Assembly (NCBI RefSeq): GCF_026130175.1
Contig: NZ_JAIGNI010000013.1
Coordinates: forward strand, 9,327-73,326
Direction: 5' to 3'
DNA: 64,000 nt
Origin: Lyngbya sp. CCAP 1446/10
GTDB lineage: Bacteria; Cyanobacteriota; Cyanobacteriia; Cyanobacteriales; Microcoleaceae
Numbering within the stretch: position 1 is the first letter of the stretch; each line of letters begins with the position of its first letter. This document shows, piece by piece, positions 32,060-37,034 of this stretch. The notes under the pieces are model-generated. The model worked only from the letters and a program-made list of their open reading frames with translations. It made no database searches and had not been told where the DNA came from. A program made the position numbers and the translations under genes.

Positions 32060-32214
32060 GATTTGAGAATACTGTGTCAAAGTTTGATCGCTCGCAGCCT
32101 TAAAGGTTTTGTATCGAATCATGAATTTAAAGCTTTTAAGGTACGGGCGATCGGTAGAATTGCCATAAATTTCTCATAGTATAAACTTGGAATCGTTGAA
32201 GTGTGCAGGGAAGC

Positions 32215-33243
32215 ATGAAATTACAAAACTTTCTCAACTCAAAAATTAGGTACGATGTCAAAGCAATCGCTGCCGACAACGAACTCAGCCGCCAAGTTCA
32301 AAGCCGCCTCATTGACCTGGGTTTACTGAAACCTCCAGTAGACGGCGCTTTTGGCCCACTTTCTACCGCCGCCCTCCACCGATTTCAAACCTTGATGAAG
32401 TGTGGCGAACCGGGTTTTTTGGGAGCAATTACAGCCAAAAAGCTGATCGAAGCCAAACCGGCGGACATTCCCACACCTCGCCCGATCCTGAAAATCCTCA
32501 AAGACACCATTTTTAAATCAAAACCGCTGGCGTCTTCTCAACTTCAGGAATCAGAAAAACAAGTAATCCCAGCGGGAAAAGAGTTTGAACTCCTGGCTTT
32601 TGTTCCAATTCGCGGTCACATTAGGGTTGCTCTCCGCAACGAATCTTTCAAAGGTTCAGGGATTTGGTATGTTTACGGAGGACACGCTCAAGTTACTCTA
32701 GATGGCGTTTTGCTGTATCCCAAACCGAATCCGCCCACTGTCAGACTTGGCATTCCTTATCGATCGCAATTAGATAATTTTTACAATCCTACAGGTGCTT
32801 GTAATGTAACTTCCATAGCGATGTGTCTGGACTTTTTGAGAGTGCCGCGGCGCAATAGAAGCGGACAATATGAAGATGAACTCTACGAATATGCGATCGC
32901 CAAAGGTTATAGTCGCTGGGATCCCTATGATTTAGCAAAGATTGTTAAAGATTACGGCGCTCAAGATTACTATACTGAGAATGCAACGATTGATGATGTT
33001 CAAGATTGGCTAGCTAGCGGAAATCCGGCTGTGATCCACGGATACTTCACGTCTTTCGGTCACATTATAGTTGCGGCAGGTTACGACAGCGAAGGATTCT
33101 TTGTTCACGATCCCTATGGCGAGTGGTTCCCAAGTGGTTATGACACAAGTGTCAGCGGTTCTTATTTGCACTATTCCTATCGTTTAATCCGCAGCGTTTG
33201 TATGGCTGACGGAAATTTTTGGGTGCATTTTATCTCCAAGTAA
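32215..33243 (+). CDS. Peptidoglycan-binding, C39-like cysteine peptidase
   Basis: 342 residues from the ATG at 32215, with GGGA upstream. The N-terminal part is a PG_binding_1 domain (DLGLLKPPVDGAFGPLSTAA). The middle is a basic linker and an SH3-like strand region. The C-terminal Peptidase_C39_2 domain has IPYRSQLDN, catalytic Cys in TGACNVTSIAM, His in FGHIIVAAGYD and Asp in HDPYGEW. It may cleave wall peptides. No signal peptide is evident, so its route to the wall is unclear. It is monocistronic. Confidence 0.82.
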   Translation: MKLQNFLNSKIRYDVKAIAADNELSRQVQSRLIDLGLLKPPVDGAFGPLSTAALHRFQTLMKCGEPGFLGAITAKKLIEAKPADIPTPRPILKILKDTIFKSKPLASSQLQESEKQVIPAGKEFELLAFVPIRGHIRVALRNESFKGSGIWYVYGGHAQVTLDGVLLYPKPNPPTVRLGIPYRSQLDNFYNPTGACNVTSIAMCLDFLRVPRRNRSGQYEDELYEYAIAKGYSRWDPYDLAKIVKDYGAQDYYTENATIDDVQDWLASGNPAVIHGYFTSFGHIIVAAGYDSEGFFVHDPYGEWFPSGYDTSVSGSYLHYSYRLIRSVCMADGNFWVHFISK

Positions 33244-33610: not shown

Positions 33611-34369
33611 TCAGGCGTTAACTAATTCTGATTCTTCCGATTCTTCCGATTTATCCCGGACTCGGAAGTAGTAAAAGAGATTAGCAACAGCCAAATCAGA
33701 CGCTTTTTCCAAATTCGACGCTACTAAACTTTTATGACCAGCTATTTCCCCTTGCTCAATAATATAATTTTCATGATCTTTTCGTTGCTGCGGATCGAGC
33801 ATAAATTCCAGTTGAGTGTAAAGCGCATAAAAATGAGACTTCGGCCTCAAATTTTCATAAAATAACTGTTCATCTGGTATTGCTAAAGCTGTTGTTGCTG
33901 ATTTTTTATCTTCAATAACCGCCAAGTTTGATTTGCTGAAATCAGCACTCTGCAACTGCTTTAACTCACTTGGAGGCAAAGCTTTAGTCCATTCAATCTG
34001 ATTAAGCCAAATGTCTAAGGCGGCTAAATCGTGATTGTGAATTCGCGTGATTTCAGGAAAGAGAAAATCAAGCTCTTCATCGGAGTCACAGCATTGTATA
34101 ATACCGAGGCCATCTTGACGGATTTGTTGTTGAAGTTGAGAAATGCGATCGCCCGCAGCACCAAATTCATTCTGCACCTGATACGTGCCAATGATACTTT
34201 GCTCGATCGCCCAACTGCACTCTAACCGGCGCAACTGTCCCGCCGCACAAGTTTCTGACAACAACTGCGGATTTTTGTAATCTGCTAAAGCCTCAAACAA
34301 CATCCCCCGCGCCGCATCAATTTCAGCATTGCGGCGGTTGATATCTTGAAGTTGCAAAGCCGATCGCAT
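33611..34369 (-). CDS. Hypothetical protein near the ATPase cassette
   Basis: 252 residues, not recognised. Mostly helical, acidic C-terminus (KSEESEESE). No signal peptide or membrane helix. Cysteines are scattered (ETCAAGQ, IIQCCDSDEELDF). It lies 104 bases behind the ATPase gene on the same strand, so it may belong to that unit as a third gene. It could also be independent. I do not propose a function. Confidence 0.65.
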   Translation of the reverse strand: MRSALQLQDINRRNAEIDAARGMLFEALADYKNPQLLSETCAAGQLRRLECSWAIEQSIIGTYQVQNEFGAAGDRISQLQQQIRQDGLGIIQCCDSDEELDFLFPEITRIHNHDLAALDIWLNQIEWTKALPPSELKQLQSADFSKSNLAVIEDKKSATTALAIPDEQLFYENLRPKSHFYALYTQLEFMLDPQQRKDHENYIIEQGEIAGHKSLVASNLEKASDLAVANLFYYFRVRDKSEESEESELVNA

Positions 34370-34473
34370 TCGTTGAATTGCTTGCTATTTGCATAACATA
34401 AGAGCGATTGGAGGGGATTAAGGATGTGCGATCGCCTACCAACTATCACATGATCTAATCATTGCATCTTCTG

Positions 34474-36222
34474 TTAAAAGCAAATCTCACCTTTATCAAA
34501 CTTTGCTTGAAGTTTTTTCTTTGCTGCTGGAGTAAGGTTTAGATAAGATGCCAGATCATCAAGAGTACGATAAGTTTTTATCTTTCTATCGCCGATCAAT
34601 TTATCAATAGTTTTCTGCTTGATACTGGTTCCCTTAAAAGCCTTTGTTAGTTCGGATTTATTGGCTCCATTGAGATTAATAGGTGATGTCGTTGGTGTAG
34701 GTGATGGCGTTGATGTAGGTGTTGGTATTGGTATTGGTGTGGGTGTGGGTGTTGGTGTGCTAATCACCTTATCAGATTTGATAAATTGAATGCGTTTAAG
34801 TTCCAACTTTCTTTGCAGGAGAGTTGGACAGGAAGGAGCAATCATAAAAGATAGATCTCCCGGTGTCCTATCAGTCTCATGAGGTTTGAAATCGGCATCT
34901 TTTAACCATTGATTAAACGTTTCTAAATGGCTGCTCAACAGTTCATAGTTTTTAGCTTCGCCAAAGGCTCTAGCAACAAGATCCCCATTGTGAAGTAATT
35001 CTACATAACAGTCGAAGGCATGACCTGCAATCACTGTTGTAGTTGAAACTGCCGATAGAGTGTAGGATTTCTGGCTCAGGTAACTTGCCCACTGTTGTTT
35101 ACACTCAGATTTTACTAACTCGCGTGAATTGCCTTCAAATACTTGCTCGGGAGCTTCTTGAAAATATTTTTCATGTATTTCTAAAACTGCACCAGCATAG
35201 TCTCGACAAAACTTTCTCAAATTATTAGCAGGATTCAATGGTATATCTTTGATTTCTTGCCATGCTAGAGCAAAATTTTGATATCCCTTATAAGCTCCTT
35301 CAATACGCTCATCCATTTTCTTTCTGATCTCTTCAATTTCATTAGTGTAGACTGGATTCAGATTTATAACTGAATCACTTAAAAGGCTTTCCATGACTGA
35401 ATCATCAACAATAAAACGTTCTACGTTTCCTGATGTGCCTGCTAAGTAAATTAACAGGCGAATTTTTGATCCAAATTCTTGTCCTAATGCCCTTCTAATT
35501 AATTGTTTGAAAAGCAATCTAGTTTCTTTGATTTCATTAGGAAGTTGTGCTATAGAATCTAATTCATCTATGAGATAAACAAAACTAAATGTTGGATCTA
35601 CTGCTGATACTTTAGATATTGTATAAAATAAAAATTGTTCAAGACTATCTACACGATCAGCAATATATATTTTAAATTGGTTGCGAAATAGCATCGAATC
35701 TTGGGCAGCATTAAGTTGGGGCAGTTGATTATTATCTAAATAATCACTCAAAATCTGTGCAGCTACATTTTTAACCGAACCCGATAGATTAGAATTGTGT
35801 AACAACTCATAAAATGTATGAGCTAGGATGTGAGAGTACAATCTTTCCTTAAAACCATCTCCAAGAGTTACATCAGAGATTTGGAAGTCAACAACTACAG
35901 AATGATTCTGATAAGTTGGTTTAGTTCTAGCTAATTCATGTAAGTAAATTAACAGGGAGGTTTTACCACTACCAAATGAGGCCGCAACAAATCTAAATGT
36001 AAAGTAACCATCATCAAATGTACGACTTAGATCGTCTTCAAGAAGCTGAGTTAGGTTAGATATTTGCCGCCCCGACAAACTTTTGGCTGTAGATCCTTCA
36101 CCCTCTGACCCTGGAAGTCTAACAACTCGTTCTATCCTAATATCATCAATAAATCCTACGCCCCCCTTTACTTGTTGAATAAAGTCTCTTATGTACCTTT
36201 TTTTTCCTGCATCTTCTGGCAT
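34474..36222 (-). CDS. P-loop ATPase with nuclease-like and HhH domains
   Basis: 582 residues. The P-loop ATPase core has Walker A GSGKTS at 84-89 and Walker B FVYLIDELD at 214-222, with the feel of BREX BrxC/BrxD-type ATPases. A region at ~400-430 reads FDCYVELL then FGEAKNY, with Asp404 and Glu422-x-Lys424, a PD-(D/E)xK nuclease-like signature. A Thr-Pro linker (488-513) leads to a ComEA-like helix-hairpin-helix (515-576: INLNGANKSEL, LASYLNLTPAA). The upstream wHTH gene ends only 3 bases before this start, so the two are translationally coupled. A defence or DNA-repair ATPase is inferred. The exact system is not recognised. It looks more AT-rich than its neighbours. Confidence 0.72.
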   Translation of the reverse strand: MPEDAGKKRYIRDFIQQVKGGVGFIDDIRIERVVRLPGSEGEGSTAKSLSGRQISNLTQLLEDDLSRTFDDGYFTFRFVAASFGSGKTSLLIYLHELARTKPTYQNHSVVVDFQISDVTLGDGFKERLYSHILAHTFYELLHNSNLSGSVKNVAAQILSDYLDNNQLPQLNAAQDSMLFRNQFKIYIADRVDSLEQFLFYTISKVSAVDPTFSFVYLIDELDSIAQLPNEIKETRLLFKQLIRRALGQEFGSKIRLLIYLAGTSGNVERFIVDDSVMESLLSDSVINLNPVYTNEIEEIRKKMDERIEGAYKGYQNFALAWQEIKDIPLNPANNLRKFCRDYAGAVLEIHEKYFQEAPEQVFEGNSRELVKSECKQQWASYLSQKSYTLSAVSTTTVIAGHAFDCYVELLHNGDLVARAFGEAKNYELLSSHLETFNQWLKDADFKPHETDRTPGDLSFMIAPSCPTLLQRKLELKRIQFIKSDKVISTPTPTPTPIPIPTPTSTPSPTPTTSPINLNGANKSELTKAFKGTSIKQKTIDKLIGDRKIKTYRTLDDLASYLNLTPAAKKKLQAKFDKGEICF

Positions 36223-36225
36223 AGC

Positions 36226-36801
36226 TTACTCTACCCACTGAATAAGTTCATCTTCTTGTTCGATAACTGCAAAGACTTTGCCAGTTGATTTAAGCAAAGC
36301 AAAGTTTTTGTTCAAATTTGAGAGAGATACATCGTTTTGTTCCAAAAATTTCTGACAAATTTCTCGGCTGCGAATAGCAACTACTCCCCTTAATTCTTGA
36401 CGCTTTCTTTCTTCAAAATAAAGAGCCTTAAACTTTTCTACAAATGTCTCAAAGTCCATCTCTTTACCACCATCGGAAGTCTGAGAATCCGCAACTCCGA
36501 TTTGACAGTATCGCCAAAGAGTATTTATGAGTTTTGCCCCTTTTGCTGATTCAAACTCATACTTACTGCTTTGCAGATTAGCAGCTAAAACTTTCTTACC
36601 TTGATCTGTCACAAAAAGCTGACCCTTTTTAGGAGATTCGAGCAATTGCTTCTGACACAAAGCATCACAGATAGCAGGCGCGTCCTTCTGGTATCCTTTA
36701 GATAAATGCTGTTTCACATCGCTTTTAGTCACCTTATTCTGTTTTGAGTAGGCTACTGCGTACAGCAAGTAAAGCAGTTGTTCGGTAGAAAGCTCGATCA
36801 T
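36226..36801 (-). CDS. Winged-helix-like partner of the ATPase
   Basis: 191 residues. The N-terminal ~80 residues form a winged-helix-like unit (KVTKSDVKQHLSKGY, LLESPKKGQLFVTDQGKKVL). A second ~90-residue helical part follows, with FETFVEKFKALYFEERKR. It is not recognised as a named family. An inverted repeat lies about 40 bases upstream. Together with the coupled ATPase it forms a two-gene unit. It may load the ATPase on DNA or sense the trigger. This is inference. Confidence 0.68.
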   Translation of the reverse strand: MIELSTEQLLYLLYAVAYSKQNKVTKSDVKQHLSKGYQKDAPAICDALCQKQLLESPKKGQLFVTDQGKKVLAANLQSSKYEFESAKGAKLINTLWRYCQIGVADSQTSDGGKEMDFETFVEKFKALYFEERKRQELRGVVAIRSREICQKFLEQNDVSLSNLNKNFALLKSTGKVFAVIEQEDELIQWVE

Positions 36802-36839
36802 AAGTTCCTCTTGTTCACTGTTACTGGGATGAACGTTGG

Positions 36840-36859
36840 TGGTATTTTAGAGAATACCA
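36840..36859 (-). promoter_or_regulatory. Operator-like palindrome before wHTH gene
   Basis: TGGTATT-N6-AATACCA, 39 bases upstream of the wHTH start. It is a candidate self-regulation site for this DNA-binding-like protein, or a promoter-proximal repeat. Confidence 0.45.
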
Positions 36860-36895
36860 TGCCTCATAGTCCTAAAGCAGCCATAAAGTAAAAGA

Positions 36896-36918
36896 CAAGC
36901 TAACTTTAACTTAGCTTG
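36896..36918 (-). terminator. Terminator of the DAHP synthase gene
   Basis: On the minus strand CAAGCTAA-GTTAAAG-TTAGCTTG is followed by TCTTTTACTTT, fitting a Rho-independent terminator about 117 bases behind the aroF-type stop. It separates the cassette from the housekeeping block. Confidence 0.7.
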
Positions 36919-37034
36919 CCCTCAACTTTCTGAATATTTTATCGATCCCTACTAAAGCATTGTTTAGTCTAAATATGGGTAGAGATTAGGAACAAAGTTA
37001 CTCACCCATATCAGTTGAGGAGTTTCGTCTGTTT

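Follow-up and report, generated by a model that had tools for sequence, protein, structure and literature searches.

We analyzed a window of 64,000 nucleotides (nt) from Lyngbya sp. CCAP 1446/10 (NZ_JAIGNI010000013.1; coordinates refer to this window, and loci and genomes carry our own L and G numbers) that contains two adjacent genes, here called A and B, encoding a predicted protein with two winged-helix-turn-helix (wHTH) domains and a predicted ORC/Cdc6-like AAA+ ATPase that continues into a PD-(D/E)XK-like nuclease region, a Pro/Thr-rich linker, and a helix-hairpin-helix (HhH)-like tail. We propose, with a probability of about 60%, that A-B is a two-gene module that defends its host against phages or other invading DNA. 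This proposal builds on the pairing of the genes, their patchy occurrence, damaged copies, varied surroundings, a change of effector, and the presence of a domain of A in phages. We infer sensing, gating, and protection as follows: A would be a sensor or adaptor that binds DNA or an invader product, and B, an ATP-gated nuclease, would bind ATP, use its ATPase and HhH tail to assemble on DNA, and upon a signal from A free its PD-(D/E)XK nuclease to cut DNA. An earlier note on this DNA had suggested a compact defense or DNA-processing system, of which the defense role now receives indirect support. Antiviral defense in filamentous cyanobacteria is in our judgment little charted, and cyanophages influence blooms. 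As a compact pair whose effector seems replaceable, A-B would offer a clean test of an ORC-like ATPase gating a killing domain.

Two genes inherited as one unit

Gene A (36226..36801, minus strand, 191 amino acids (aa)) precedes gene B (34474..36222, minus strand, 582 aa), whose ATG lies 3 bases past the A stop codon, a spacing that the earlier note had described. Counting that of the window, we compared 36 distinct full-length pairs. Every one has A immediately 5' of B; 29 share the 3-nt gap, the other seven have gaps of -13 to 16 nt, and the distances among A proteins follow those among B proteins (Pearson r 0.80, 36 pairs). Among 388 genomes of the order, B is present in 34 (E <= 1e-6) and a strong A match in 33 (E under 1e-25), the latter counted after removal of 39 weak-A genomes from the 72 with any A match. 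Both genes occur in 32 of the 35 order genomes that have either, and the three exceptions are fragments (G207, at a contig end; G600, with 75 tail residues; and G631, with a truncated A fused to a prolyl oligopeptidase gene). A scan of GTDB contigs, which like our scan of viral contigs relies on short peptide patterns that divergent forms may escape, yielded 21 loci, all cyanobacterial by title (including Microcoleus, Tychonema, Planktothrix, Nostoc, Trichormus, Trichodesmium, Okeania, and Acaryochloris, among others), with A directly upstream of B in every one; at one of them, L056, the contig holds only the start of B. Whole-genome searches covered cyanobacteria, and other phyla were reached through the GTDB contig scan alone; when a broader profile for B was used, 7 of 386 genomes of the phylum matched. 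These results show that A and B form one co-inherited unit, and the recurrence of the pair elsewhere, which the earlier note had proposed to look for, is borne out. In the 39 genomes set aside, the sole A-type match is weak (E above 1e-10) and belongs to a separate family of mostly 220-310-aa open reading frames (ORFs).

The unit is patchily distributed: beyond its limited presence in the order, B is found in 5 of the 25 genomes listed for the window's genus, and the pair in 2 of 10 genomes of the genus of Planktothrix rubescens. Comparing the tree with taxonomy, we observed that families f1 and f6 are split, each requiring at least two changes on well-supported branches. Damaged copies also occur. 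The B reading frame is broken in G595 and G640 (draft assemblies, in which sequencing error is possible), and in G638 a deletion has joined what is left of A and B. In G631 (L112:6289-8772), about 131 codons of A run in frame into the prolyl oligopeptidase gene, which we interpret as a deletion scar because A-B precedes the same gene in L051 and L126.

The surroundings of the pair vary as well. From 27 of the 34 loci we collected 146 neighboring proteins and scanned 139 of them, leaving out four from L041 and one from L114 (near-copies), one from L120, and one from L122. Any given neighbor recurs at 6 of the 34 loci at most, and the ones that recur outside close relatives are of common kinds, such as response regulators. 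Among the best 25 of 102 PADLOC families matched by the neighbors at 1e-10, mad3, mad2, and PD-Lambda-2_B were found twice each, together with single methyltransferases and one REase_II. Tyrosine integrases account for 3 of the 139 proteins, and TnsC chains rank high in the fold comparison of B given below, both of which would suit a component of a mobile element, for example a TnsC-like target selector carrying a nuclease. We regard this as very improbable, given that no third gene travels with the pair (transposases were not searched by name) and that the nuclease motif is intact in 35 of 36 B proteins. At the Trichormus locus (G646; L114:341-6161, a stretch that is partly N), we observed three near-identical small gene pairs, HicB/VapC-like by eye, adjoining fragments of the B tail.

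Predicted domains and their variants

The AlphaFold model of B has a mean predicted local distance difference test (pLDDT) score of 82.0 and a predicted template modeling (pTM) score of 0.57. Its N-terminal half aligns with the human ORC chain 7jpq_D (VIA-align; Z 16.7, root-mean-square deviation 3.5 Å, 256 residues), followed in the fold list after ORC/Cdc6 by TnsC chains (Z 12.8-14.2) and BrxC (9zdx_A, Z 13.1); the best Foldseek E value with this model is 3.1e-5. The Walker A motif GSGKTS (residues 84-89; 35956..35973, minus strand) retains GxGKT in all 36 distinct full-length B proteins, window B included, on which all our motif counts are based, and the Walker B motif FVYLIDELD (residues 214-222; 35557..35583, minus strand) retains Asp followed by Glu or Asp in all 36. 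Fold and Walker motifs thus identify B as a predicted ORC/Cdc6-like AAA+ ATPase. Against Pfam and NCBIfam, window B matched no family above cut-off, and PADLOC returned SngB alone, weakly.

The ATPase is followed by a PD-(D/E)XK-like nuclease region (residues 362-487; 34762..35139, minus strand), delimited by alignment and by the order of helices and strands in the model. Its putative catalytic residues, Asp404 (35011..35013, minus strand) and Glu422-Ala-Lys424 (34951..34959, minus strand), are conserved in 35 of 36 proteins, and we recognized both this motif and the ComEA-like one of the tail by their generally known appearance. In the model, residues 358-482 form a helix, strands next to D404 and the E422-x-K424 motif, a second helix, and further strands, with D404 lying between predicted strands 401-403 and 405-411 and E422-K424 closing strand 414-423; this order appears to be the one expected of PD-(D/E)XK. 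Most rows of the fold comparison span residues 1-354 of B and hence largely stop short of this region. A Pro/Thr-rich linker of variable length (residues about 488-511; 34690..34761, minus strand; pLDDT <50 at 485-511) leads to a ComEA-like HhH tail (residues 512-582; 34477..34689, minus strand). Among 28 homologous tails, the Pfam family HHH_3 matched 15 at E<=0.1 (best 4.9e-5) and T2SSK matched 14; for the window tail itself, HTH_26 (0.0091) outranks HHH_3 (0.072; 13.6 bits against a cut-off of 27). An HhH profile compared with PDB sequences mostly retrieved annexins (best E 2.6e-5) and a few PsbU proteins; the annexin matches, which cover short helical stretches, we regard as chance. Overall, the coupling of a wHTH protein to an ATPase with nuclease-like and HhH-like parts, as read by the earlier note, can be placed on located motifs that are kept among the 36 B homologues to a degree that chance would not explain.

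Two B proteins depart from this plan. In L074 (G408, 729 aa), the one exception among the 36, K, G, and R replace D404, E422, and K424 (Gly-Ser-Arg at the second site), and the C-terminus is a TIR_2 domain (64.2 bits against a cut-off of 28, E 2.1e-17). This domain aligns with solved bacterial TIR domains (7uxr, 7uwg), including the W-x(3)-E motif, and retrieves four solved TIR chains from the PDB (E 2.4e-4 to 0.0036), with AbTIR (8g83) last. The one other genome of the G408 family that was searched gave no match. In L068 (G439, 816 aa), the nuclease motif is intact and WD40 repeats (E 1e-43) replace the HhH tail. The output of the TIR form would be NAD+ depletion instead of DNA cleavage; this would suggest that the infected cell shuts down, as opposed to classical restriction.

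These features also bear on whether A-B is an accessory pair for DNA repair or recombination, in which the ATPase and HhH tail would load B onto damaged or branched DNA, the nuclease would trim it, and A would tether or regulate B. DNA-loading ATPases do fill the fold list (ORC/Cdc6, TnsC, BrxC), and HhH and PD-(D/E)XK domains are frequent in repair proteins. Such a role is nevertheless unlikely for a pair that is patchy, at times broken, set in varied surroundings, and known in TIR and WD40 variants; to our knowledge, TIR domains have no role in bacterial repair.

For A, the AlphaFold model (m82c03bd5871e; mean pLDDT 83.6, pTM 0.52) shows two winged-helix domains linked by a long helix. The N-terminal one (residues 1-80; 36562..36801, minus strand) is placed by predicted secondary structure, and the C-terminal one, hereafter A_C (residues 110-191; 36229..36474, minus strand), by alignment and profile matches. 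In the PDB the model is closest to SarS (E 1.9e-4), and winged-helix regulators are among the next matches; Pfam and NCBIfam gave nothing above cut-off, with a weak Mrr_N match. A scan of 176 cellular genomes for A_C found 12 positive, every one at an A gene. Outside this set of genomes, a 704-aa ORF that lies close to a tyrosine integrase gene (L113:4164-6278, G609) contains A_C at residues 483-560.

A small wHTH gene directly 5' of a larger nuclease-like gene, spaced from an overlap to a 16-nt gap, recalls a toxin-antitoxin-like addiction pair, in which A would be repressor and antitoxin, B a toxic nuclease, and phage protection secondary or absent. Three observations make this quite unlikely: A has two wHTH domains, an operator common to all was not found in the 28 regions upstream of A, and no plasmid copies were found (A gave no match in 72,556 plasmid records). 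Across these 28 regions, the longest perfect inverted-repeat arms are mostly close to shuffled-sequence values, with longer arms in a few loci (11 in L049; 8 in the window, L040, L041, and L115). Within 36740-36930 of the window, 5' of A, lie an inverted repeat, CAAGCTAA..TTAGCTTG, and a second repeat, GGTATT..AATACC, which is partly conserved in the Microcoleus group only.

A domain shared with cyanophages

Searching viral contigs with the A profile, we found seven loci, and an A_C scan found the identical seven contigs. Six of these are relatives of the Planktothrix phage PaV-LD, with a DNA identity to it of about 97-98% for four contigs and about 85% for two; L148, for instance, matches PaV-LD at 98.4% over 7.5 kb and at 99.1% in the portal protein. 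All six carry an extra 362-aa gene in the head region, whose product combines a head-protein-like N-terminus (phrog_16619) with A_C twice in tandem (E 3.4e-22 and 5.3e-24 in L148), whereas PaV-LD itself has no A_C match. Among the 19 PaV-LD-like contigs with the gene immediately upstream, some of which may be repeat samples of one virus, the A_C gene is present in six and absent from the flank examined in 13. Another phage contig, L153, has a single A_C copy. The phage head-region proteins thus share A_C with A, in two copies; unlike A, they have a head-protein-like N-terminus, and no B-like ATPase was found in viral contigs. Phage and host A_C domains are about 35-40% identical, which argues against recent exchange. 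The gene belongs to a variable cluster of head-region proteins (L173:5268-9790 and the equivalent region of L172-L189) with a common N-terminus and differing later modules, in which some C-termini look ADP-ribosyltransferase-like by eye and have no Pfam match.

We hypothesize that the phage gene may serve in counter-defense. In its fullest form, A-B would be a new cyanobacterial immune system with an exchangeable effector (nuclease or TIR) and tail (HhH or WD40), countered by a phage mimic of A that is packaged in the virion, a scenario that we consider possible yet doubtful. The product of this accessory gene in the variable head-protein locus, with its tandem A_C domains, would be injected with the phage DNA and would occupy either the face of B that binds A or the DNA site of A before the nuclease is released. 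Equally open is the mirror image, that the domain of A descends from, and senses, this class of phage head-region proteins. Should the phage domain prove to be an antagonist or trigger, A-B and the PaV-LD relatives would offer a ready model of defense and counter-defense in a bloom-forming host.

Several points weigh against the defense interpretation. The TIR and WD40 forms are known from one case each, and L074 sits on the longest terminal branch in the tree (length 1.69) and lacks further conserved residues, so that the loss of its nuclease motif could stem from general decay. Profile searches gave the nuclease region no significant match: PDDEXK_5 matched 2 of 29 (lowest E 0.024) while unrelated families scored equally, and a nuclease profile compared with PDB sequences retrieved a BrxC chain (best E 0.07) and then transferrins. 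The pTM scores of both models leave the arrangement of the domains unsure. In tblastn searches, window B and the distant B of L081 had no match in 72,556 plasmid and 50,697 phage records, nor did two B profiles match the viral contigs. Defense-type neighbors are raw counts without a background rate, and we claim no enrichment from them. The wHTH domain shared with phages may mirror DNA binding alone. Finally, both protection and nuclease activity are predictions.

Known defense systems and the chromosomal site

The earlier note had named BREX ATPases as the nearest impression while remarking that the other BREX genes are absent, and our results agree: B and the BREX ATPases are distant relatives by their ORC/Cdc6-like fold and a score below cut-off. 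Window B scores 20.3 bits against BrxC_BrxD (PF10923; cut-off 22.2) and 12.1 against the NCBIfam BrxD family (NF033438; cut-off 350), and L081 reaches 21.7 bits against the former. PglZ (PF08665) was not found in the 171 contigs of the window's own genome (completeness 100) and was found in 2 of 14 control genomes; in a scan of five window proteins, to which the search was confined, no BrxX/PglX methyltransferase was seen. The absence of PglZ and the scores below cut-off rule out membership in BREX. BrxC is assigned to the ORC/Cdc6 clade, with wHTH domains following (PMC12839542). B shares the ORC/Cdc6-like AAA+ domain with BrxC and BrxD; in contrast to BrxC, it is half the size (PMC12839542), has an intact nuclease-like motif and an HhH tail, and its wHTH domains reside in a separate protein, A.

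Other systems resemble B in their P-loop part. The distant B of L081 passes the Pfam cut-off for KAP NTPases (PF07693; 23.8 against 20 bits), while no KAP match was found for window B, L074, L120, L066, L075, or L068 (for the last among the best 25 of 64 families); the P-loop part of L068 matches PADLOC PifA (E 1.6e-5), with the ATPase part alone aligning. MADS Mad8 (PADLOC PDLC04140) weakly matches the ATPase of two distant B proteins (E 2e-4 and 0.0041), again limited to the P-loop part; no MADS set was identified, although mad2- and mad3-like genes each account for 2 of the 139 neighbors. The P-loop region of window B also matches Shango SngB (E 0.0092). Among the five window proteins, PADLOC found no match for SngA or SngC and SngB on B alone, and since neither of the other two was found beside B, we rule out Shango. 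By these comparisons, A-B belongs to none of the known defense systems tried. The roles of SngA and SngC in Shango, of Mad8 in MADS, and of TIR domains are here taken to be those generally assumed. Judged by titles and the beginnings of abstracts, no paper describing the A-B pair was found. A-B resembles the modular conflict systems that are centered on NTPases with varied effectors, including REase, and occur mostly in multicellular prokaryotes (PMC7159879); the text of that source does not contain "HhH", "BREX", or "CDC6", and the A-B pair is not met in the passages considered.

A third gene that, according to the earlier note, might belong to the cassette does not. Gene C (33611..34369, minus strand) exists as a 252-aa ORF, adjoins the pair at just three loci (the window, L036, and L037), and is the truncated remnant of the partner of a TerB-dynamin (Leo-like) gene, which places it outside the A-B system. 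Of 29 genomes of the genus, 28 contain C-related sequence, whether they have the pair or lack it; where the pair is missing, this sequence belongs to a 430-837-aa gene adjoining the dynamin gene. In the window, homology to this partner begins at 34385, and the dynamin gene and the start of the partner are absent. Its occurrence without the pair and its remnant nature rule out gene C as a member.

Beyond A, on the side opposite B, lies a DAHP synthase gene, as judged from its counterpart in L036. In four genomes of the same genus without the pair (G615, G564, G605, and G203), an 866-870-aa gene, divergent from the 430-837-aa partner with its variable C-terminus, lies beside DAHP synthase. Genes of this TerB-dynamin type are found at L139:1609-4215, L140:4920-7520, L141:2330-4930, L142:1553-4165, and L144:1678-4281, and those of L139, L140, L141, and L142 occupy the site held by A-B in the window. 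The one scanned, from L139, matches Pfam TerB and Dynamin_N and PADLOC LeoA (E 4.7e-25). Together with the remnant gene C, this places A-B where relatives hold another defense-like system, whose proteins are unrelated to A and B. Adjoining gene C in the window is a gene for a C39-type peptidase with a peptidoglycan-binding domain (32203-33243).

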